64,000 nt of DNA from the NCBI GenBank assembly GCA_900469445.1, contig UBXM01000006.1, positions 124,001-188,000 of the forward strand. The letters run 5' to 3'. Each line of letters starts with the position of its first letter. Position 1 is the first letter of the stretch. The translations under genes and the position numbers were made by a program. Of this stretch, positions 18,177 to 36,672 are shown piece after piece. The stretch is from Hyphomicrobiales bacterium. GTDB taxonomy: Bacteria > Pseudomonadota > Alphaproteobacteria > Rhizobiales > Rhizobiaceae. Under the pieces are notes generated by a model, which saw only the letters and a program-made list of their open reading frames with translations, ran no database searches and was not told the origin of the DNA.

Positions 18177-18392
18177 GCTGTTCCTCCTCCTCACCATCAG
18201 GTCGGCTGCAGCATGTTTCGTGTCGCCCTCCTCGACGACGCGAAACCGGAAATCCTGCTCCGATTGATTGCGCTCCGTTGGTTTGTCCACGCAGTGCGGT
18301 AACCCTTTGATTTCCCTATAGCTGAATCCAATTTCGTCGGGCGGTCACGTAAAAACGCTCCGATAGCTCTGTCCTGATTTTCGATACGAAAT
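18177..18392. other. Intergenic boundary between amino-acid operon and transposition module
   Basis: About 216 bp between the first gene of the amino-acid ABC operon and the terminator behind tniQ. It should hold the operon promoter and probably the left edge of the Tn7-like element. I could not find a convincing terminal inverted repeat or repeated TnsB-binding sites here. Confidence 0.4.
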
Positions 18393-18494: not shown

Positions 18495-19955
18495 TCAATG
18501 AAGGCGAGCTAGGTCGCTACGGCTAACCCAGAGGTTTGTGAAATAGCTACCACCGTAGCGAACGACTTTAAGTTCCCCAGTGACAACCGCTTGTAGGATT
18601 GCTTCCAGGTTCCCGTTCCTATTCGTTGCAGCCTCGCGAAGTGGGACGTGATCTGTGAGCTCTGAGGCTGCAACGACGTCCCCGTCGATTTTGCGCTTCA
18701 GATCCTCGAACACTTCCCTATTGACGACAATCCGGGATCCTGCGCGTCCGCCGCTTCCTTCTACTTTTGGGAGAAAGCCATTGAGCACGAGCGCACGAAT
18801 TTGGGATTGAGGTAGCCGCCACTCTCTGTGGATGTCCCGGATCGACATCCCCGTCTGTTGCTTGCCGAAAATAGCATTTGCAGATGCGGCGTCGAAAAGG
18901 ACGTTGTTGTGAGGCAGGTCGCTCCTTTCGATCACGCCAGCGTCTTCGAGCATTGTCCGAACAATCTTTTCAGTCAGACCCCACTGGCTGCTCGCGGTCG
19001 TGATCGAGTGAAGCACTCTCTTCTTTGTCGGGAAAATGAACACTTCATCGACACCCAACGGAAATGATCTCTCGGCAATGCTTTGGAATAGCTCGGCCAC
19101 CTCTCCAAAATTCGGTTCGCTTCGGTGGAGGGCCAACCATGATCGCAACGATCCGAAGAAAGTTCGGAAATCTCGCGTTGATAGTTTGGTAGATGCCAGG
19201 ATACTCGTGACGAAGTCCTCGATGGCTCTCGGGCCCTGAGAGGCAATGTTGAAACCGAGCGTGACGTCATTGTTGGCGTCCAACACTTCTTGGGGCGCAG
19301 CCTTGTGACGTCTGACGACCTCACCTAGTCTGTCGCAGAGCTCGAAAGCTACCATCGACTCAAGTCCGTCCAAGAAAATATTCGAGAGATCGCCGCGAAT
19401 TCGCGCAATGACGTATCGAGCGAGATCAGCGCCGGCAGCATTGGTCGTGCTTTCCGCCTCCTTTCGTAACTGGGCAAGATTACTAACAACGAAGCTAGAG
19501 AAGTCGCTCGCATCAGTTTTGCTAGCCTCGACTTCAGTAAGGGGGCATTCGTGCACCTCGCATGTGTTCACCAATCGGACGCACCAGTATGCCCGAACGT
19601 AAGGCGCGGCGTTTGGTCTCCCAGCTGTCTGCGAGTAGTCATCCATAACGCACTGGGGGCAGAAACGGTGACGGTTCCCTGGGCGCATTTTCTTCGTGAG
19701 GGTAGCATCGCCTAGCCGCCAAGAGCCTGTGCCGCCCAGGATTTGGTGGCGGACGAGCCGGGATTTGGGAATCCCGGACCAAGTTGAAAGCTGCTCGATA
19801 GCACCCTCTTCGCATTGCCGGATAGCTGCCGCTCGCACATCAGTGCACGACAGAAATTCCGCCAAAGAACGGTATCCGTTTGCGATCGCGAGACGGGACG
19901 CCAAACTGAGTGGCGTCTCGTCATCGTGGAAGGGAACTGTGACTGGAAGCTGCAT
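18495..19955 (-). CDS. tniQ: TniQ family target-selection protein
   Basis: A 486-residue protein whose N-terminus (VPFHDDETPLSLASRLA) and zinc-finger region (HRFCPQCVMDDY at about 97-107, then CEVHECPL at about 132-139) identify the TniQ/TnsD family. These proteins select or license the target site for Tn7- and Tn5053-type transposons, working with the AAA+ protein encoded next to it. The C-terminal ~250 residues probably carry DNA-binding domains (for example SIRDIHREWRLPQSQIRALVL, helix-turn-helix-like). At 486 residues it is longer than Tn5053 TniQ, which is compatible with a TnsD-like site-specific role. It is the last gene of the operon; its start overlaps the TniB stop. Confidence 0.88.
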   Translation of the reverse strand: MQLPVTVPFHDDETPLSLASRLAIANGYRSLAEFLSCTDVRAAAIRQCEEGAIEQLSTWSGIPKSRLVRHQILGGTGSWRLGDATLTKKMRPGNRHRFCPQCVMDDYSQTAGRPNAAPYVRAYWCVRLVNTCEVHECPLTEVEASKTDASDFSSFVVSNLAQLRKEAESTTNAAGADLARYVIARIRGDLSNIFLDGLESMVAFELCDRLGEVVRRHKAAPQEVLDANNDVTLGFNIASQGPRAIEDFVTSILASTKLSTRDFRTFFGSLRSWLALHRSEPNFGEVAELFQSIAERSFPLGVDEVFIFPTKKRVLHSITTASSQWGLTEKIVRTMLEDAGVIERSDLPHNNVLFDAASANAIFGKQQTGMSIRDIHREWRLPQSQIRALVLNGFLPKVEGSGGRAGSRIVVNREVFEDLKRKIDGDVVAASELTDHVPLREAATNRNGNLEAILQAVVTGELKVVRYGGSYFTNLWVSRSDLARLH

Positions 19956-20935
19956 TAGTTGGCGCTCCTCCGACGGCTAATTGGCATGGCAGGAGCGAGG
20001 TCGGCCAAAGCGTTTGCCCTGTCGATGTCGCGCCAAGCCTTGGCTTTAAAGATATTGTCTGCAGGCCTGCAGCCCGAGTAGCGTTCGTAGACGCGTGCGA
20101 AAGCGCCTGGCTCCAGCTTCTTCTTACTTACCGCAAGGGCGGTGAAGCAGGCTTCCCTGATCATCTCAATCATGGTCCCATACGAGCCCTGGGTGGCTGA
20201 GCAGAGGCGGCCCAAAAAGTCATCAGTGTCCAGTTCAGGTGATAACGAGAGCCCGCAATGGGTTTCAGCAATCTCCTTCAACACGCCGCGCATGATGTGT
20301 TCATCCCCCGGGCACGCGAGTGCTGAGAAACGCATTACCTCGGCTCTGTTCGGTAGTTGCTGATCACCACTGAATAGGGCCGCAAGTTCCGGCACACCGC
20401 TGTAGATGGTGTGAAGCGGCCAGTCAGGCACGGACAGCAGGCTTTTCAAGCGTTCCTGAAGTTCGAACACGGCGTTGCGGGTCTTTGCGCGCAAAAGAGT
20501 TTGTGCCTCATCAAGGTGTAGGAACAGAACGCCACGCGCTTTGAACTGCTGTTTTGCAATAGCGAATAGTTCATGCTCATTCTGACGGCGGTTCACAGGA
20601 AGCTGCATCTTTTCTAACACCTCGATTACGAGATCTTTTGTGGAGCTCGGGCGCGGCACTTCCAAGCTGATAAGGGGTTGGATCATTTCACCGTACTTGT
20701 TTACGTACGGCTGGAACGCATCGATCTGAGCGAATGCTTGCTCGAGCGACGTCGACTTTCCAGAGCCGGACGCTCCGATAACGGCAAAGGTGCGGTGGCG
20801 AGTGCCGCCTCCTTTCAGGCAGTCGTGGGCGTTCTGAGCGAATTCCCGGAGCCGTTTTTGCAATTCGGCGCACCGGGCGCTCTCGACGTAACGGCTGGCT
20901 TCGCGGACACGCAGTTCGGATAGTTCTTCAGTCAT
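19955..20935 (-). CDS. tniB: TniB/TnsC-like AAA+ transposition ATPase
   Basis: A 326-residue AAA+ ATPase that would bridge the target complex (TniQ) and the transposase (TniA). Walker A GASGSGKS is at 54-61, Walker B GVLFLHLDEAQ is near 135-145, and a sensor-like TIYSGVPELA follows. I chose the ATG at 20935, which begins MTEELSEL and sits directly behind the TniA stop (20937). A longer in-frame extension upstream reads as unlikely low-complexity sequence inside tniA. It shares its end with the TniQ start (1-bp overlap), so the two are coupled. Confidence 0.88.
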   Translation of the reverse strand: MTEELSELRVREASRYVESARCAELQKRLREFAQNAHDCLKGGGTRHRTFAVIGASGSGKSTSLEQAFAQIDAFQPYVNKYGEMIQPLISLEVPRPSSTKDLVIEVLEKMQLPVNRRQNEHELFAIAKQQFKARGVLFLHLDEAQTLLRAKTRNAVFELQERLKSLLSVPDWPLHTIYSGVPELAALFSGDQQLPNRAEVMRFSALACPGDEHIMRGVLKEIAETHCGLSLSPELDTDDFLGRLCSATQGSYGTMIEMIREACFTALAVSKKKLEPGAFARVYERYSGCRPADNIFKAKAWRDIDRANALADLAPAMPISRRRSAN

Positions 20936-20936
20936 C

Positions 20937-23156
20937 TTAATACTCCTGATCAAAATCGAAGGCGGACGTGGCTGCTTCGGTGGTAGTTGCGGTGGTTTCT
21001 TCATCGTCTGAAAGGGCTGCTGCCGCCTTCTCGGCCGCGATGGCTGCCTTTCTGTTTTGGGTGAAGAGCATCGCCAGATCTGCGACGTTTCCATCCCGAA
21101 GGGGGTTCTCCGGCAGAATCCCACTAGTGTTCAGTGCCGGCTTATTTTCAGAAGCAATCGCCGCCCAAGCGCCGTACAATTCGGCGTCCCAACGATCGTA
21201 ATCTTTGGCGGTTGGTGCGCTCGGTGTGAGGCCGGCTCGCAGCGTAGCTGCTTCGCCAATGCTACGAAGACGGTTGATCGCGTCGTACATGACGTTGAGA
21301 CCCTGTTGGTTGGCGGTCTCGTAGTGGTCCTTCAGCTCTTTGCGGGCCGCCATCCATTCGGCAATAGTGATGTTCTCGTCGAGATCGATGGTGTTGCGGA
21401 CTACGAACCAACCCTTGTCGCCTTTGACAGAGATGTGGGCGACGCACTCCGGGTCGTACTTGATTTCAACTTCTGCGAAGCTGGGCTTCGTGCGAAGACG
21501 CTGGAGCTCTTCTTTGCAGTAGGTGATGCCAAATACGGTGATCCCGTAATCCGACATCGGGCGTTTGGATTTCACACCGAAGATGTGCAGCATCTCTTCC
21601 GGCCCTGGCGGATACAAGATCGGGAAGTCGCGGCTAGCCTGAACCCACTCGTTGTGGGGTGTATTCCCGCCAAGACCGGAGTGCGGTTTGTTGTGATAGA
21701 TGTCGCAGATCGCGAAGATGTAGATTTGGATCAGCTCGTCGACCAACAGTGACGCGTGTAGCTTAGGGTCGTAGTCGCCCTTTTCCGAAACCGACGAGAA
21801 CGTCCTGCCTTCGAAGTAGGGAGCGACCAGATGACCAATTGAATGGAAGAGGCTCTCGATAAAAGGCCGAGCGTCAGGTTCCCCTGCCGGCGGTTTCGTG
21901 CCGTCTACACGAGCAGCGCGAAGGACGCCGTTCACGAGCTCATTTGCGAACTCCGGACCGTTATCGGTGTAGATAGCCAGAGGGCGAAGTTTGCCGATCC
22001 AAGGGGTCTGTGCGCTGACATAGGTCGACAAGTGACGCTTGTCCGACATGATCATACGAATGCACGCAACCGCAGAAGCAGCGTTGGGATTCGTACTGGC
22101 TTTGAAGCCTAAAATGTACCGGGTCGCGACGTCGATCGCTGCACAGAAAGTGATGCGAACGGTCGGGATCTTCGTCTGGATGTAATCGGGTAGCGAGGCC
22201 CAAACGCCACTCTCTACAAGGTGCGACATCAGATCGACCGTGACGAAGTCCATCTCGAGGCGTTGCCCTGGAGCGCGGATGGGGAAGCTCTTCCGGATGT
22301 TCTTGAACTTGTCCAAGGCCTGCTTCTCGCCGAAGCGGCTCGCATGGACGTGGTAGCGATCAAACCTGCCGATGATGGATTCGAATTTCTTGCGAGAGAC
22401 TTTCGAAATCTTCAGAGGAGTAATGGCGGTCGTGTTGTGTGCCTGTAGTGCGGCAAGGTAATTACGGTAAACAAGCGCCATCGTTGGACGCTTGCGGTCC
22501 ATGTATCCCATGGCCTGCTCGAACGCGAAAGTGAGGGCTTGCGGGGAGATCGAAGACATCTTCTTTCCCGGGCCATGATGACGCGGAAGGAGTGCCATGA
22601 CATCGCGGTCAGCGCCTTCGTAGTCATCGTAGTCACGCTTGAAGGTACGGGCACTAGGGCAGGGGTAAAGCGACACCTGTGTAACTTGATCTGCGCGATT
22701 TTCGTCAATGCTTGCGAACAGTTCCTCGTTGCATTTCTTCGTCCATGTACGAAGAAGGCCGCCGATCTTGTCTTCAGACATAGGGATCCGCTTGCCACGA
22801 CGCATGGCCTCTTCGTCGTAGAGCAAGATGAGCTTCTCCTTATGGAGAGCTAGGCCACGAGCATCCTCGGGAAAGTCGTCCCAGGTTTTATCTCCGAAAA
22901 CGGCACGCATCTTGGCGCGGGCAGGGGCGTCGAAGTTGTAATCAATCGTGGCCTGCCGGCTATCTAACGCGTCGTAGATTTCCTGATGGCTCAGGAAGAC
23001 CTTGTTTTCCTTGTCGCCTTCAGCTTGGACGACGTAGCCTTCCGCGGTGCTTTCCACAGGCTTGAAATTCACGCCCTTGTAGATGAAGCGATCGGCGCGG
23101 CGGAGGCCGATAATTGAATGCATGAATGCGCGGGCTGGGATCGGACGGGCTTCCAA
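20937..23156 (-). CDS. tniA: TniA/TnsB-like DDE transposase
   Basis: A 739-residue transposase of the Mu/Tn7 TnsB type. The retroviral-integrase core carries the catalytic triad: D303 (EMDFVTVDL), D398 (IYTDNGPEF) and E434 (PFIESLFHS), with 35 residues between the last two as in DDE(35) enzymes. The N-terminal ~290 residues should bind the transposon ends, and the C-terminal part after ~560 resembles the Mu-type beta-barrel and TniB-contact tail. The start is a TTG at 23156 preceded by AAAGGA; an internal ATG 11 codons later is possible. It cuts and joins the 3' transposon ends. Confidence 0.9.
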   Translation of the reverse strand: MEARPIPARAFMHSIIGLRRADRFIYKGVNFKPVESTAEGYVVQAEGDKENKVFLSHQEIYDALDSRQATIDYNFDAPARAKMRAVFGDKTWDDFPEDARGLALHKEKLILLYDEEAMRRGKRIPMSEDKIGGLLRTWTKKCNEELFASIDENRADQVTQVSLYPCPSARTFKRDYDDYEGADRDVMALLPRHHGPGKKMSSISPQALTFAFEQAMGYMDRKRPTMALVYRNYLAALQAHNTTAITPLKISKVSRKKFESIIGRFDRYHVHASRFGEKQALDKFKNIRKSFPIRAPGQRLEMDFVTVDLMSHLVESGVWASLPDYIQTKIPTVRITFCAAIDVATRYILGFKASTNPNAASAVACIRMIMSDKRHLSTYVSAQTPWIGKLRPLAIYTDNGPEFANELVNGVLRAARVDGTKPPAGEPDARPFIESLFHSIGHLVAPYFEGRTFSSVSEKGDYDPKLHASLLVDELIQIYIFAICDIYHNKPHSGLGGNTPHNEWVQASRDFPILYPPGPEEMLHIFGVKSKRPMSDYGITVFGITYCKEELQRLRTKPSFAEVEIKYDPECVAHISVKGDKGWFVVRNTIDLDENITIAEWMAARKELKDHYETANQQGLNVMYDAINRLRSIGEAATLRAGLTPSAPTAKDYDRWDAELYGAWAAIASENKPALNTSGILPENPLRDGNVADLAMLFTQNRKAAIAAEKAAAALSDDEETTATTTEAATSAFDFDQEY

Positions 23157-23380: not shown

Positions 23381-24142
23381 TTAAAATCCTTTCAGGTGAT
23401 TGATAGAGTCGTGAGGGAATGCGGGACGGCTGACACGCAGCAATGACAGTTCGTCGACCCTGCCATCATTGACGGGTTCGATTAGGCGCAGGTCGATGAG
23501 ACGCCAGATTGCTGTCCGGCGTTTAGCTGGCGTGGATACGTTGAGGAGAAGCTGCCCGAAGCGAAAGCTGCCCGGCATACGCTGGACGAGTTTTGCGACT
23601 ACGGCGCATTCGGCATCATCATGATGCGGTCGGGACGCAACGATAGCTGTCGCGTTCTCGAAGCAGGCAAATGAGGCTTCGAGATTCGTGGCTACGAAGA
23701 CAGCATCGGCAATGGAAGGAACGAGCGTTCCATCTTTTTCGATACCCGTGATGCCATTCGCAACGATGCGACCCATAAGGTCATCCATCGCCGCCTTCTT
23801 ACGAGCTTGTTTGACAGCGATCGCGATGCGTGTCCCGTCACGGTTGACGATGAAGAAGTCAAACGTATGCGTGCGCAGAACGCCATCGGCATCTACGTAT
23901 TCTACCTTCGGATACTGCGAGTGGATTTCGACAATATCACAGTACGCGCTGAGGATCGTGCTTACGCGATGCTCGAGTTCGCTCTCGTGATATACGACGA
24001 CGTCGCCGAAGAACGTGTGACCACGGGCCGTCTTCGCCTGTTTGGTCGGAGGGGCTCGTTGTGCGAGACCAGCATCGGGTTCATGCCAATAGGTGCTGGC
24101 GGCAGAACTCTGCTTGGAATTAGGTGATGCGCAATATTTCAA
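23381..24142 (-). CDS. TnsA-like transposon endonuclease
   Basis: A 253-residue protein of the TnsA type (N-terminal restriction-like nuclease, C-terminal winged helix). The nuclease core shows ESELEHR (candidate Glu 53-57), HTFDFFIV (D95) and IAIAVK (K111). This spacing fits the Glu-Asp-X-Lys site of TnsA, although the residue two before the Lys is Ala where Gln or Glu is usual. The C-terminal end (RRTAIWRLIDLRLIEPV) resembles a winged-helix tail that would contact TniB/TnsC. It should cut the 5' ends so the element moves by cut-and-paste. It starts at TTG 24142, overlapping a small ORF by 23 bp, which suggests coupled translation. Confidence 0.75.
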   Translation of the reverse strand: MKYCASPNSKQSSAASTYWHEPDAGLAQRAPPTKQAKTARGHTFFGDVVVYHESELEHRVSTILSAYCDIVEIHSQYPKVEYVDADGVLRTHTFDFFIVNRDGTRIAIAVKQARKKAAMDDLMGRIVANGITGIEKDGTLVPSIADAVFVATNLEASFACFENATAIVASRPHHDDAECAVVAKLVQRMPGSFRFGQLLLNVSTPAKRRTAIWRLIDLRLIEPVNDGRVDELSLLRVSRPAFPHDSINHLKGF

Positions 24143-24263
24143 AGCCCCCGATCAAGGTCGCGATGTGAGCGTCCTTGTCGAATGTGGAATGGGGCCGAGT
24201 AAGGGTGGCGAGGCCGGCTTTCTTAAGCCGCAAATGTAAGCTGACTTGCTGTGAAAAAATCAT
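24120..24263 (-). CDS. Small leader-like protein coupled to the TnsA-like gene
   Basis: A 47-residue reading frame (MIFSQQVSLHLRLKKAG...) with a strong AGGAGAAGG ribosome site. Its end (GGFEILRIT) overlaps the TTG start of the TnsA-like gene, so ribosomes finishing it could restart there. A hairpin-forming inverted repeat lies directly before its ribosome site. A second small ORF in the same position before another TnsA-like gene (36562-36672) also ends in GFEI, which supports both being genuine. Function unknown; it may be a regulatory leader peptide of the transposition operon. Confidence 0.6.
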   Translation of the reverse strand: MIFSQQVSLHLRLKKAGLATLTRPHSTFDKDAHIATLIGGFEILRIT

Positions 24264-29102: not shown

Positions 29103-30413
29103 GTGGATACTACCGCCAAGGGCAATCGGCTCGAAGACGCTTTCTATGAATATCTTCTGGATCAGCAGCGACGTGGTGTATTGGTCTACGACAGCATCCC
29201 GCCAGATCATTGTAAGATCTTCAAAAAGAAGACGTACTTCTGCAAGGAGCGCGGATCAGAGGTCGAATTCGACATCGTAATTGAGCTTTACCGTCCTGGA
29301 CGGCCCTCACCACACTCTTATACCGTGTTTGAATGCAAAAACTATGAGGGCGGAATTCCCGAAACACAAGCAGTCGACTTCTCTGACAAACTAAGTCGCT
29401 TGTTCAGGCACGCGGCAAAAGGTGTCCTTGTCGTTTCCTCGCGGCTTCAGTCCGGTGCAGAAAATTTGGCTCGAAGCCGAATGCTTGCGATAGTGAAATA
29501 CGATGAGCACGGATTGGAAGTCGTGGCGGACCGGAAGGGTGGCCTGCGCCTGGAAAGCCGCTTTTTGGAATCGCAGCTATTCACTAGCATGCGGCGATCA
29601 AAATCGCTCAAGTTTTCGGCTTATCACGACGGAAGAACATATGGGGCGCTCAATCAACTACTGAGAGACATTAATCCCGAGCTGTTTAGAGATCATCCGG
29701 ATGAAGGCCGGGTGGATTCTGTGCCATTTGTAACGTTGGGTGCGCTGAGAAAGTCGGCGTTGAGGCTTTTGGAAAGGATCGACTACAGGAGCGGAGCTGT
29801 CGATCTGCACAAGGTTTGCGCGCTGCTCAGTATCGACCTCGTGTTTTTCGGAGGCTCTGTTTACGACGAGGACGGAAACCCTGTTTTGGGATCTGCTAAC
29901 TTCGACGCGCGATCTATACAGCTGAACGTACACGCAAATGAGCTGAGACGGCGGTTCACACTCGCTCACGAAATCGGGCACTTCGAGCTCGACCACGGAA
30001 AGTACCTTAGGTCGGACACATTCGTGCAAGATGATCTCTTAATGGGAATAGATAGTAAAGCAAAATTCGAGTACGAGCGGCTAGAGGTCCAGGCGAACGC
30101 TTTTGCCTCCGAACTTATCCTTCCTGAGCACATATTTCGGAAAGCTGTTCAAGTCGCACGAGAAAGGGCTGATATCCGAGACCGTAGCCACGGATACATC
30201 TACGTCGATAACCAGCCGTGCAACATCGAGCCTTATGATCACCTGCTAACGGATATCTCGGATTATTTCGAGGTCTCGAAGCAAGCAATTGAAATCAAGT
30301 TGCTAAGAATGGGTCTGCTTACGGACGCTCGGCAGAATGTCCGTGGCGAGGTTAACGCTCAGCATTTGGGAGCATTCGTGCCTCGGCTGCCAATCTTGCG
30401 TCACCGGCAGTAG
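29103..30413 (+). CDS. PD-(D/E)XK nuclease fused to ImmA/IrrE metallopeptidase
   Basis: A 436-residue fusion. The N-terminal ~150 residues have a restriction-like core: EDAFYEYL, VEFDIVIEL (D57) and YTVFECKNY (E77-x-K79), the full PD-(D/E)XK set. The C-terminal half carries the COG2856 zinc peptidase motif LAHEIGHFELDH (H289, E290, H293) and the downstream EVQANAFASELILPE with the third ligand, as in ImmA and IrrE. ImmA-type peptidases cleave repressors of mobile elements and IrrE/DdrO-type ones cleave repressors of DNA-repair genes. A DNA-end or virus sensor linked to repressor cleavage would fit. The start is GTG 29103 with AAGGAAG upstream. It lies within the accessory block. Confidence 0.78.
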   Translation: MDTTAKGNRLEDAFYEYLLDQQRRGVLVYDSIPPDHCKIFKKKTYFCKERGSEVEFDIVIELYRPGRPSPHSYTVFECKNYEGGIPETQAVDFSDKLSRLFRHAAKGVLVVSSRLQSGAENLARSRMLAIVKYDEHGLEVVADRKGGLRLESRFLESQLFTSMRRSKSLKFSAYHDGRTYGALNQLLRDINPELFRDHPDEGRVDSVPFVTLGALRKSALRLLERIDYRSGAVDLHKVCALLSIDLVFFGGSVYDEDGNPVLGSANFDARSIQLNVHANELRRRFTLAHEIGHFELDHGKYLRSDTFVQDDLLMGIDSKAKFEYERLEVQANAFASELILPEHIFRKAVQVARERADIRDRSHGYIYVDNQPCNIEPYDHLLTDISDYFEVSKQAIEIKLLRMGLLTDARQNVRGEVNAQHLGAFVPRLPILRHRQ

Positions 30414-32788: not shown

Positions 32789-34720
32789 TCAGCAGGCACA
32801 GAAAGGTGCGGACGCCACCGTTGGTCCTTTTCGCTTGCGTTTCAAGGTTAGCTGCAGTTCCTGAAGGCGCTCGGGGGAAACCCGTTTTTCTTGCAGGAGT
32901 TCTTCGATGACCAAGTCTCCTAGTTTCCTTCGTGTGGTAATGAGATCTTTGGCGCGATTGAACTGGTGCTCCAAGATTTCTTCGACGCGCTTTCTCAGGT
33001 CAGGGTCGCTCTGCCGTAAGGCTTCCAGCTCCTTGTCAGTCTCTGCCACGCTGTAGCGGTAGGTCGACCCCATTCCCAACGAGGTTTCCATCAAGGTTGC
33101 GAAACGTGTTGCTGTCCCTAAGTCAGACGTAGAACTGCCGCCTGCTCCGTCACAGAAGGTGCCGAGCCAAAGTTCCTCGGCAGCGATCCCGCCGAGCAAT
33201 ACTGCAATTTTGTCTAGGATGGCCTGCCGATTTTGGATCGTGAACACGGACAGTGCGAATTGGGCTAACCCGCCCTTGAACCCTGCATCAGAGATGGGCA
33301 ATCGGTCGAAAATCATGGTGCCGCCGAAATCACCACAACGGAGAGCCACCCCAACTAGTGTATGTCCTGTTTCGTGGATGGCGACTAACCTGAGAAATTC
33401 CGGTGTCGGCGTAAGCAGCTTCGGTAGCGAAGCGATTACATCTTCCGGCTGCAACGCCCGCCGCTTGGCGCGGGCAAGTCGACGCCCATCGCGAACTGCC
33501 TTGGAAATGTCGGCACCGGTCATTTCAAGCGTGGATAGCAGGAAATCATGACGGTTCTGACCTTCGAACGTGAGCTCCGTCATCGACTCTACGATAGCAA
33601 TGCGGTCGAGTGGGCTGGGTTTCGCGATGGCAACATGCTTGTCCAGCCGTCCGGCTCGCAGTAGGGCCGGATCGATGCCTGCGATATTGTTGGTAGCTCC
33701 CACAACGATCACACCCTGTCTGTCACCGAGACCATCCAGGGCTTCTAATAGCCCGTTGACGACCTGGAGGGAGTAATTGTTATCGTCTTTGCTGAACCTT
33801 GCTCGGTCACCCACGGAGTCGAGCTCATCGATGAAGAGGATCGATGGTGCCGCATTCCGAGCATCGGCGAATGCCTTACGCATGGACTTTAAGAGGTCAC
33901 CGAGATGACCTGCTGCTTGCCACTGTGCAAGGGAGGTGGCCACGAGCTTAACATTACATTCTTGAGCGAGCGCTCTGGCAAAAATTGTCTTTCCAACGCC
34001 AGGCGGTCCACTCAAGACGATTCCGCGGTCGACGTCGCACCAGTCGATCTCACGACGTTGCCAGGCCTTGATGTCCGCGGCCAGTTGGAGCCCCCAAGTC
34101 TTCGCCTCACCGTAACCATGCATTTCGCTAAGAGCAGGGGAGTCGGCCGGACGAGGCGCGATCGCTTCGAAAGTGTCTTGAGATTCAAGACGCTTGAGGA
34201 TGTTCGAGATATCTCGGCCGGGACGCACAGCGGCCCATAAGAGGTTCCTTGGATAGGCGAGTGCTTCGCGAGCCTGAATAGGGTGGACCTTGATGCCCAG
34301 TGCGTTCTGGCAAGCAAAGATGAAGTCGGATGCGTCGATGATCGGTAACTCGATAACCCTGTCGGCAGCAACACTCAGTACCGGCGGCAAATACGCTCCA
34401 TGTTCCGCGACAACCAGAATTCGATCATTGTTCTGCAAATCTTCTCTGAAGTTTTTCCGAGATCGTGGGCTTTTGTCATTGGCACGGACGTAAATGAGCG
34501 CGCCTTCACGGTCCCCCCATTTGCCGCCCGTGCGTTCCGCCAGAGCCATCATGATCTCCAGATAGTCATCGATTTCATAGCCATCCGGGGCGGTTAGGAT
34601 GACCACGCCGGGCGCTCCTGCCGCGAATTCTGGAGCGTCCTCCATGGCGCGGGTTACGCTTCTCGCTAGCGCAACCCGGTAGCAGTCGAGCTTGGTATTG
34701 TCCTTATCGAGGTCAATCAT
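32789..34720 (-). CDS. Soluble FtsH-like AAA+ zinc metalloprotease
   Basis: A 643-residue protein. Residues 1-200 are a novel N-terminal region without transmembrane helices. The AAA+ module has Walker A GPPGVGKT (238-245), Walker B ILFIDELD (294-301) and the second region of homology with LLRAGRLDKH (about 353-362). The M41 peptidase domain has HETGH (449-453) and the third ligand candidate in TSDLGTATRFATLM (D533). FtsH proper is membrane-anchored; here the anchor is absent, so it would act in the cytosol. It is the last gene of a leftward cluster with a DUF6634-like protein and two TnsA-like proteins, which suggests a shared process in the mobile element. The target is unknown. Confidence 0.82.
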   Translation of the reverse strand: MIDLDKDNTKLDCYRVALARSVTRAMEDAPEFAAGAPGVVILTAPDGYEIDDYLEIMMALAERTGGKWGDREGALIYVRANDKSPRSRKNFREDLQNNDRILVVAEHGAYLPPVLSVAADRVIELPIIDASDFIFACQNALGIKVHPIQAREALAYPRNLLWAAVRPGRDISNILKRLESQDTFEAIAPRPADSPALSEMHGYGEAKTWGLQLAADIKAWQRREIDWCDVDRGIVLSGPPGVGKTIFARALAQECNVKLVATSLAQWQAAGHLGDLLKSMRKAFADARNAAPSILFIDELDSVGDRARFSKDDNNYSLQVVNGLLEALDGLGDRQGVIVVGATNNIAGIDPALLRAGRLDKHVAIAKPSPLDRIAIVESMTELTFEGQNRHDFLLSTLEMTGADISKAVRDGRRLARAKRRALQPEDVIASLPKLLTPTPEFLRLVAIHETGHTLVGVALRCGDFGGTMIFDRLPISDAGFKGGLAQFALSVFTIQNRQAILDKIAVLLGGIAAEELWLGTFCDGAGGSSTSDLGTATRFATLMETSLGMGSTYRYSVAETDKELEALRQSDPDLRKRVEEILEHQFNRAKDLITTRRKLGDLVIEELLQEKRVSPERLQELQLTLKRKRKGPTVASAPFCAC

Positions 34721-34752: not shown

Positions 34753-35073
34753 TCACTCTTTGGGGGCAGGTTGGCCGAGCGCGTAGAACCGCGATCTGGT
34801 CCGTGCGAAACCGCGTCCGACATCAATGGCGATCAATTCGCTTGTGACGCCGATGTACCCGCTCGGGATCGTCGGGTGGTCGAGATACACGCCCGCCAAG
34901 CAGGGCACGGGGCGCGTCGACAGCTTCCAGCCCTCTAGCGTTGGGCTTTTCTTCAGGATCGCGGGGCTCGGCGCTTGGTCCCGTTGAAGAGTTTTGAGGT
35001 CTTCGAGAAGCTTCGAAAGACGTGCAATCTCGCGATCGAGGCGGGCAGAATCCCAGTGTGCATATTCGAACAT
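34753..35073 (-). CDS. DUF6634-like small protein
   Basis: A 106-residue protein. The N-terminal half is a helix (LDREIARLSKLLEDLKTLQ). The second half, with LEGWKLSTRPVPCLAGVYLDHP and GFARTRSRFYALG, matches my memory of the DUF6634 family, common in Rhizobiaceae and of unknown function. It sits 32 bp upstream of the FtsH-like gene on the same strand, so it is probably co-transcribed. It could be an adaptor or substrate of the protease, but that is speculation. Confidence 0.6.
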   Translation of the reverse strand: MFEYAHWDSARLDREIARLSKLLEDLKTLQRDQAPSPAILKKSPTLEGWKLSTRPVPCLAGVYLDHPTIPSGYIGVTSELIAIDVGRGFARTRSRFYALGQPAPKE

Positions 35074-35987: not shown

Positions 35988-36572
35988 TTAAGCTCGAAGG
36001 ATTGTGATGTGGTCGATATCGCCGATATCGACCGGGAAGACCTTCAGATAGCCTTCATCAACTAAACGCCAAACAGAATGTCGTCGCACCTGCGGGCGGT
36101 CAGCATACCGAAGAACCTGCGACAGCCGCACGGGCAGCCGCATAATGTCGATATACGATCTCGTTTTCTCGACATCTGCTGGCTCGGCTTCTGTGCGGGA
36201 AAGCAGAATCTCGTCGGCAACTTGAAGCTGCTTGTGAGACACGTCTCTCTCCGTCCAAATCCGAGCGAAGTCAGCAAGTCGCTCGGTGGAGCGACCGCCT
36301 CCGATCCCGCGGAGGCCGCGGCGATTGAGAAGGTCCATGAGGGGAGAAAGACGTTTCTCGGCCTCGTCATCGCTAGCAACCGATACTGCCACGCGATGTC
36401 CGTATTGGCTGACGGAACTGAAATCGAACGTGTGCTGACGGAGGATCCCATCGCTATCGTAGTAGTCAACAGTGGGATAGCCGAGGAGCACCTCCCGGAC
36501 ACCCGGAAAGGTTTTTACGACGAGTGACGCCCGTTCGATGAGATTGGCGGTCGCGGCAGCCTCATATTTCAA
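35988..36572 (-). CDS. TnsA paralogue lacking the catalytic lysine
   Basis: A 194-residue protein clearly related to the TnsA-like protein at 23381-24142. YPTVDYYDSDGILRQHTFDF aligns with YPKVEYVDADGVLRTHTFDF, and RRHSVWRLVDEGYL aligns with RRTAIWRLIDLRLI near the end. The Asp of HTFDF is kept, but the AVK segment is SVASDDE, so the metal-site Lys is lost and nuclease activity is unlikely. The start is placed at TTG 36572, where GGCTTTGAAATAT is identical to the start region of the other paralogue; a GTG at 36602 is the alternative. It may retain only DNA or TniB binding. Confidence 0.65.
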   Translation of the reverse strand: MKYEAAATANLIERASLVVKTFPGVREVLLGYPTVDYYDSDGILRQHTFDFSSVSQYGHRVAVSVASDDEAEKRLSPLMDLLNRRGLRGIGGGRSTERLADFARIWTERDVSHKQLQVADEILLSRTEAEPADVEKTRSYIDIMRLPVRLSQVLRYADRPQVRRHSVWRLVDEGYLKVFPVDIGDIDHITILRA

Positions 36573-36672
36573 AGCCTCGTGCCGAATTATCGCCGTGACC
36601 ACCGTTGGCCAAATGCGACGAGGCGTCCGTAGCAGAAACGAGGGATGAGGAAAGGGTCGTGATCTTGGTCAT
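36562..36672 (-). CDS. Small leader-like protein coupled to the TnsA paralogue
   Basis: A 36-residue reading frame (MTKITTLSSSLVSATDASSH...) with AGGAG 8 nt before its ATG. Its last codons (GFEI, stop) overlap the TTG start of the following TnsA paralogue by 11 bp. This repeats the arrangement before the active-type TnsA gene at 24120-24263, which also ends with GFEI at the same overlap. Function unknown, perhaps translational control. Confidence 0.5.
   Translation of the reverse strand: MTKITTLSSSLVSATDASSHLANGGHGDNSARGFEI

Follow-up and report, generated by a model that had tools for sequence, protein, structure and literature searches.

A TnsA homologue (TnsA2) that has probably lost the ability to cut DNA is encoded beside a TnsA-like protein and an AAA+ protease in a large Tn7-like element, and comparison of related tnsA genes strongly points to a +1 ribosomal frameshift in the expression of the clade to which the tnsA1 gene of the same element belongs. 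The window, i.e. the whole stretch of DNA that was analyzed, comprises 64,000 nucleotides and corresponds to positions 124001-188000 of contig C51; window coordinates are used throughout except for the right end of the element, which is given in contig numbering (Table 1). TnsA2 is the first gene of a putative operon that continues with P201, a DUF6634 protein and the AAA+/M41 protease, presumably on a single transcript.

Table 1. Position of the features discussed in the text (window coordinates unless indicated)
Feature	Position	Strand	Remark
Left terminal inverted repeat	18264..18290	+	Partner at the right end, same contig (C51), ~332,599-332,625
Subterminal repeat TCCGATAGCTCTGTCC	18359..18374	+	Possibly a TnsB-type end site; sole other perfect pattern match in the genome is at the right end
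TniQ/TnsD-like target selector	18495..19955	-	Pfam TniQ 1.2e-13
TnsC/TniB-like ATPase	19955..21124 (ORF as listed)	-	Pfam TniB 6.3e-14
TnsB-like DDE transposase	20937..23156	-	Pfam rve 1.3e-6 (under cut-off), Mu-transpos_C 8.6e-6
TnsA1	23381..24142	-	Active-site E, D, K present; Pfam TnsA-like_N 2.7e-4, under curated cut-off
Leader 1, probable N-terminal segment of TnsA1	24120..24263	-	Lies one base behind the tnsA frame; relatives keep it, with in-frame fusion in 7 rows
Predicted +1 frameshift box GGC TTT GAA ATA T, site 1	24134..24146	-	At TnsA1
AAA+ ATPase with M41 (FtsH-type) protease domain	32789..34720	-	HETGH; Pfam AAA 4.4e-32, M41 2.2e-16
DUF6634 protein	34753..35073	-	Pfam 1.1e-8
P201, divergent TnsA-like protein, 201 aa	35150..35755	-	Glu/Lys positions not conserved; two Asp in 57/57 relatives
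TnsA2, TnsA homologue without catalytic Glu and Lys	35988..36572	-	TTG start at 36572
Leader 2	36562..36672	-	Body unlike leader 1; SD-like sequence before ATG 36672
Predicted +1 frameshift box, same as site 1, site 2	36564..36576	-	At TnsA2; leader stop TGA right after ATA

The assignment of the element as Tn7-like relies on the presence of tnsABC and tniQ together with inverted ends, repeated sites and a short target duplication. tnsA1, tnsB, tnsC and tniQ are consecutive on the minus strand, the tnsA-B-C-tniQ order of Tn7; the true start of the TnsC-like ATPase is probably further in than that of the ORF, and 20938 was used. On the left flank, synteny with five relatives that are devoid of the insert runs to position 18265, where the sequences diverge, and in one of these relatives (L203) the sequence past the junction corresponds to C51:332626 in the source genome (94% identical). 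Both junctions carry the inverted ends (27 nt, 24/27 alike), a duplication of CCGA/CCGAT and a second repeat, TCCGATAGSTCTGTCC. The pattern TCCGWTRGNTYTGTCC gave two perfect matches in the genome, one per end, and one match with 1 mismatch on another contig; the places of these matches are striking, their count alone is not, because the reversed pattern also gave two genome matches at <=1 mismatch. With ends mapped at 18264 and ~332,625, the element is ~190.4 kb long, and all of the window to the right of 18264 is therefore inside it. It may be composite; the contig was read up to 207 kb and from 318 kb on. The transposons described in a survey of Tn7-like elements (PMC8649781) likewise carry cargo and the tns genes between inverted ends that bear repeated sites, the longest of them reaching 140 kb compared to the ~190 kb found here. 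Near the right end of the element, two short TnsC-like pieces were detected (L212:4326-4500, E 2.4e-6), perhaps a remnant of another element.

The original prediction, correct in its ORF coordinates, held TnsA2 to be a TnsA paralogue. The pairwise alignment that it suggested shows clear homology of TnsA1 and TnsA2 (31% identity over 189 aa, E 1e-25 for a single pair), with the motifs HTFDF and RR..WRL(I/V)D common to both as claimed, and a TnsA profile built without TnsA2 scores TnsA2 at 120.5 bits. Homology extends over the core and C-terminal part; ~45 aa that TnsA1 has near its start are missing from TnsA2. The absence of the catalytic lysine, also claimed, was found in an alignment of 24 TnsAs in which the Lys of TnsA2 is replaced by Ala and the Glu by Ile, the Asp being kept. 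Among the 23 other rows, Glu is present in all, and the Lys position is occupied by Lys in 17 and by Arg in 6. Because of these six Arg-bearing TnsAs, a missing Lys by itself does not clearly identify an inactive nuclease; the combined absence of Glu and Lys is a stronger indication. As both residues are replaced, TnsA2 was filed as TnsA-like and not as a TnsA nuclease. Its neighbour gene is P201, tnsB being ~12 kb away. The profile match to Tn7 TnsA (PDB 1F1Z, 1T0F) is weak and non-significant (E 0.29), with the motifs S-x-L-E, D-F and V-K in register; relative to Tn7 TnsA, TnsA2 lacks Glu and Lys and is remote from tnsB, and TnsA1 differs by an additional N-terminal segment that lies in a different frame. 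The TnsAs with Arg for the catalytic Lys come from loci L159, L126, L167, L140, L139 and L120 (6/24 rows); a TnsB match adjoins the tnsA gene in five of the six, L140 being at a contig end.

Both tnsA genes of the window are overlapped at their start by a small upstream ORF, and the 13-nt sequence GGCTTTGAAATAT is identical at the homologous point of the two genes (24146-24134 and 36576-36564), as had been predicted. The small ORFs start at ATG 24263 and ATG 36672, each with an SD-like sequence. They had been described as the same small leader ending in GFEI. The overlap is indeed alike and leader 2 ends in GFEI, but leader 1 has GFEI internally and ends in GFEILRIT, and the bodies are unlike: outside the overlap, the leader profile, trained on a set including leader 1, gives leader 1 37 bits and nothing at TnsA2. 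The overlap had been taken for a conserved leader structure that points to a duplicated cassette; a +1 frameshift site, through which the leader would become part of TnsA, accounts for it better.

This explanation comes from relatives. Upstream of tnsA, these carry a conserved segment that reads roughly M-x-F-x-R-Q-V-x-x-x-I-x-L-K-R-A-G-L-G-F. A leader (score >15, rows below 15 being counted as leaderless) was found in 22 of 50 TnsA rows: it is fused in frame with tnsA in 7, forms a separate ORF in the +1 relation (one base behind the tnsA frame) in 13 and is in the third relation, overlapping an ATG start of tnsA, in 2. A further fused case was recognized by eye on Sinorhizobium meliloti pSymB. 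Fifteen leaders of these same loci had served to train the leader profile, and the only independent finds are L118, L124, L135, L161 and L170, together with L234, which was recognized by eye. Ahead of the conserved first segment, ATG, GTG and TTG are all missing from the tnsA frame in 10 of the 13 rows with the +1 relation; a start codon is present in the other three, TnsA1 of the window (TTG), L170 (ATG) and L024 (ATG).

Substitution rates were estimated in seven pairs of sequences from three groups. Over the 40 codons past the leader stop, dN was 0.02-0.11 and dS 0.30-1.21 in the tnsA frame in 7/7 pairs, whilst the same 40 codons read in the leader frame gave dN of 0.14-0.25 and dS of 0.03-0.14 (dN not below dS). 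In the leader body read in the leader frame, dN (0.07-0.20) was lower than dS (0.17-1.60) in 7/7 pairs; for the pair L085/L118 the two frames are indistinguishable there (dS/dN of 0.28/0.14 and 0.27/0.13), so the leader side is telling in six of the seven pairs. Judged from these rates, the start-less stretch of the tnsA frame is under purifying selection in the pairs tested. Fused and +1 arrangements interchanged at least 4 times on a tree of the 20 labelled rows. The fused row L161 is nested in a +1 group, and its box reads TGT AAA TAC, one base fewer than the TGT AAAA TAC of its near relative L118.

As a candidate shift site, AUA is present in the leader frame in 13/13 of the +1 rows, preceded by a purine-rich codon in 13/13, and also at TnsA2, and AUA accounts for 17 of the 6901 codons in 13 genes of the window. 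A candidate stimulator, an SD-like run (GGGGG, GGAGG or GAGG), stands before the AUA in the window copies and in L066, L067, L085, L081, L118 and L170, and is clear in some lineages; in the groups of L074 and L073 this run is weak. In L074, L071, L068, L077 and L124 a stop in the tnsA frame is found at the box, and the slip must therefore fall slightly later. Combined, two overlapping frames under selection (7/7 pairs) and the lack of a second start codon (10/13 rows) lead us to infer strongly, from comparative data, that the shared box is the +1 ribosomal frameshift site of the tnsA of this clade, with a leader-TnsA fusion as the predicted product. By analogy, TnsA2 would be made by the same +1 frameshift.

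Initiation at unusual codons may offer an alternative for the start-less tnsA rows. At the box, TnsA1 and TnsA2 of the window each offer a TTG in frame, to which TnsA2 adds a GTG 30 nt upstream, so that direct initiation is possible for these two. It is quite unlikely that the small ORFs are genuine leader genes, with translation passing from them to tnsA by stop-and-restart at the TTG. Such coupling would fit the TTG of both window copies, the stop of leader 2 adjoining its TTG, and the ATG that overlaps the leader stop in the related rows L098 and L078; however, the usual start codon is missing in 10 of the 13 +1 rows, the same leader segment is fused in frame elsewhere, and at TnsA2 the SD-like GAGG is only 2 nt from the TTG. 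L098 and L078 themselves have a variant leader (MRPSKNVLHHVLVRR...) whose stop overlaps the tnsA ATG, which suggests ordinary translational coupling and not frameshifting at these two loci. At L159, a box GGC TGT CAA ATA lies upstream of a tnsA with no leader by profile, perhaps a further lineage with the site.

In +1 frameshifting of the RF2 type, the shift takes place near the end of the 5' ORF, as proposed here for tnsA. A case from a rhizobial mobile element is ICEMlSymR7A, the excision activator FseA being made by +1 frameshifting according to a review (PMC5009743). Compared to RF2 and FseA, the predicted tnsA site is followed by AUA, has an adjacent stop only in some loci and concerns a transposase subunit. 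The words Tn7 and tnsA are absent from the accessible part of that review (PMC5009743), and no report of TnsA frameshifting was found in the open-access literature searched. If the frameshift is real, ordinary gene calling would read the tnsA of a whole Tn7-like clade incompletely, and recoding would be a means of dose control, bearing on cut-and-paste versus copy-in transposition.

The origin of TnsA2 was approached with a tree of the 50 TnsA rows; TnsA2 is one of these rows, and one gene is represented by two of them (L049, L097). The 22 leader-bearing rows, TnsA2 and L027, in which no leader was found, form a group of 24 with support 99/99. TnsA1 falls in a group of five with the TnsAs of four other elements (98/99), from which TnsA2 is excluded. 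TnsA2 branches elsewhere in the leader-bearing clade, at a position that is unsure because its branch is so long (2.38 changes per column). The two genes had been interpreted as a duplicated cassette. This was not supported, as TnsA1 groups with other elements and the leader bodies show no likeness; an AU test does not reject TnsA1 and TnsA2 as sisters (p 0.36). A recent duplication of TnsA1 is thus disfavoured by the tree and the leader bodies in spite of that test. A fast-evolved duplicate of TnsA1 within this element, a reading to which we give little credence, would account for the 13-nt box identical in the two genes and is compatible with the AU result; against it, TnsA1 groups with other elements (98/99) and shares 58% identity with the TnsA of L135, compared to 31% with TnsA2. 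A derivation of TnsA2 from TnsA1 by duplication is therefore not clear.

No TnsA2 orthologue was found in the genomes of the genus, the family and the order, in the genome contigs or in the plasmid collection. With TnsA2 as query and the source genome counted each time, matches occurred in 16/57 genus genomes (E 0.01), 16/394 family genomes (E 1e-4) and 4/397 order genomes; the other places in the genus and family searches all have a TnsB match alongside. At the order level, where TnsA1 and TnsA2 each served as query in one search, the TnsA2 matches L237 and L238 are weak (1.2e-6 and 4.7e-5), and TnsA1 reaches the first of these places at 8.5e-16. The scan of genome contigs, sensitive to close relatives only, returned none, and the plasmid collection gave two matches at 28-29%. 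In the source genome, the TnsA2 query revealed no TnsA besides TnsA1 and TnsA2 (next match E 0.43). No same-strand TnsA is present upstream of P201 in 80 loci. The proposal that the paralogue be kept with its module across genomes therefore fails for TnsA2, for which neither an orthologue nor a counterpart upstream of P201 was seen, and is borne out for P201 with the protease (see below).

The lack of orthologues in the sets searched, together with the missing N-terminal part and active-site residues, is what would speak for TnsA2 being the functionless, decaying remnant of an older tnsA. We regard this as improbable: a frame of 194 codons is open despite the branch of 2.38 changes per column, GC content by codon position resembles that of TnsA1, and the SD-like sequence and the box are intact. 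A maintained TnsA-family protein that probably no longer cuts DNA, as suggested by the residues replaced, is the reading retained below.

P201, the neighbour of TnsA2, recurs in Rhizobiales. It is present in 22/57 genus genomes and at 99 loci of the genome-contig scan, of which 80 were kept, with hosts including Rhizobium, Agrobacterium, Mesorhizobium, Microvirga, Ensifer, Phyllobacterium and Shinella. Profile comparison of 57 P201 proteins with 23 TnsA rows (TnsA2 left out) revealed similarity across the length of the protein, with a score of 52.6 (P 4.1e-7, 171 columns) compared to 17.5 for the reversed profile and a maximum of 19.7 in 60 column shuffles. NCBIfam TnsA_like matches P201 at 5.2e-5, under its cut-off, and Pfam TnsA_N matches 3/57 members. 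A smaller alignment of 28 sequences scored no higher than 23.8 (P 0.01), a plain HMM search for the relation gave nothing, and the one match of P201 in the PDB was not significant (E 0.62); for these reasons the relation is considered remote, and P201 is described as TnsA-like on the strength of the profiles. Of the 57 proteins, 51 have Ala and none has Glu at the Glu position, and Lys is absent from the Lys column in every row. Arg40, Trp60, Asp77 and Asp90 are invariant (57/57), and because two Asp are among them P201 may not be dead.

The protease follows P201 in 73/80 loci; among the seven misses, L168 is at a contig end, the protease ORF of L141 opens before P201, and in L108 fragments of the protease are encoded on the opposite strand. 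HExxH is found in 69/69 protease ORFs above 500 bits. Hydropathy gave no clear membrane segment for the AAA+/M41 protein of the window. It shares AAA and M41 domains with FtsH and the AAA domain with IetA, scores 163.5 bits against an FtsH cut-off of 600, and has partner genes different from those of FtsH and IetA.

Flanks of up to 10 kb, some of them short, were then compared with 20 control stretches picked at round coordinates and not at random. tnsB and another tns gene are present in the flanks of 31/80 P201 loci and 0/20 controls; any of TnsA, TnsB or TniQ is found in 36/80 (0/20 controls), leaving 44/80 P201 loci with none of them. In the 31 loci with TnsB, the distances of P201 and of the protease are correlated (Spearman 0.53, permutation p 0.0005), and neither correlates with those of TnsB (0.02, p 0.30 for P201; 0.00, p 0.47 for the protease). 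As their distances agree with each other and not with those of TnsB, P201 and the protease move together between differing tns sets, and no co-evolution of this module with TnsB was seen. A shared gene upstream of P201 was also looked for and discarded: 128 ORFs formed clusters of at most 8 and 7, many of these ORFs were put down to chance since they run into or adjoin the beginning of P201, and one cluster of four looks PIN-like. At L103, L117, L119, L121, L129, L130, L145, L150, L157 and L178, P201 stands beside tnsB-tnsC-tniQ with no TnsA by profile.

A role for the module can be proposed along the following lines. Ribosomes would start at the small upstream ORF and reach the box (GGC TTT GAA AUA here), where some would slip +1 into the tnsA frame, so that the leader would form the first part of TnsA2 as in the TnsAs of the clade. 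In Tn7, the C-terminal part of TnsA binds TnsC. The non-cutting TnsA-like proteins, TnsA2 and P201, might bind partners of TnsA, either TnsC or the TnsAB end complex, and as adaptors bring them to the AAA+/M41 protease, which would then limit transposition, take apart transpososomes or attack competing Tn7-like elements. An adaptor and a protease acting on transposition proteins would be the simplest joint reading because TnsA look-alikes adjoin a protease with conserved ATPase and Zn-site motifs. The joint claim, that TnsA2 is non-cutting, made by frameshifting and working as an adaptor, is put forward tentatively, as close to evenly balanced with a slight lean to doubt. The broader model, in which rhizobial Tn7-like elements set TnsA dose by a +1 frameshift and some carry P201/TnsA2 and the protease as a counter-system that dismantles their own complexes or excludes rivals, is speculative and, taken as a whole, unlikely.

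The lack of correlation of P201 or the protease with TnsB argues against co-evolution with one transpososome and for mobile cargo, and, with the 44/80 loci that have no TnsA, TnsB or TniQ nearby, leaves room for a cargo or defence role. P201 and the protease would in that case be cargo, e.g. for defence against phages or plasmids, and TnsA2 would be a captured TnsA that works with the module, with no part in the transposition of the element described here. This is a real possibility, if a doubtful one. The module is found beside tns sets with TnsA and sets without a detected TnsA, its ATPase domain resembles IetA of PADLOC (5.7e-21), and Tn7-like elements carry much defence cargo according to the accessible part of the survey (PMC8649781). 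On the other hand, P201 and TnsA2 are both of the TnsA family, an odd choice for phage defence, the AAA similarity is generic, and no PADLOC family matches TnsA2, P201 or the DUF6634 protein at E 0.01. PHROGs likewise gave nothing for these three proteins.

An adaptor-protease system would have a parallel in ClpX, an AAA+ unfoldase that acts on the Mu transpososome. According to another report (PMC12326709), integration by a Tn7-like CAST in human cells increased with ClpX, for which the hypothesis given is that it takes the complex apart after transposition. Unlike ClpX, the ATPase described here has an M41 protease domain, and its gene lies next to those of TnsA-like proteins. In the open-access literature searched, no link between TnsA and FtsH or another protease and no inactive or paralogous TnsA was found to be reported (accessible parts of PMC8649781 and PMC10293859); the words FtsH, protease, paralog and frameshift are absent from the main text of PMC8649781. 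If the link between pseudo-TnsA proteins and the protease is real, the element would encode its own equivalent of the ClpX step, or the link would represent a new form of exclusion between transposons. Elsewhere in the element, the protein encoded at window positions 29103-30413 contains an M78 peptidase domain of the IrrE-like type (6.9e-18), matches Mrr_cat weakly (0.088) and also matches the PADLOC capP (1.1e-19) and RmrA models.
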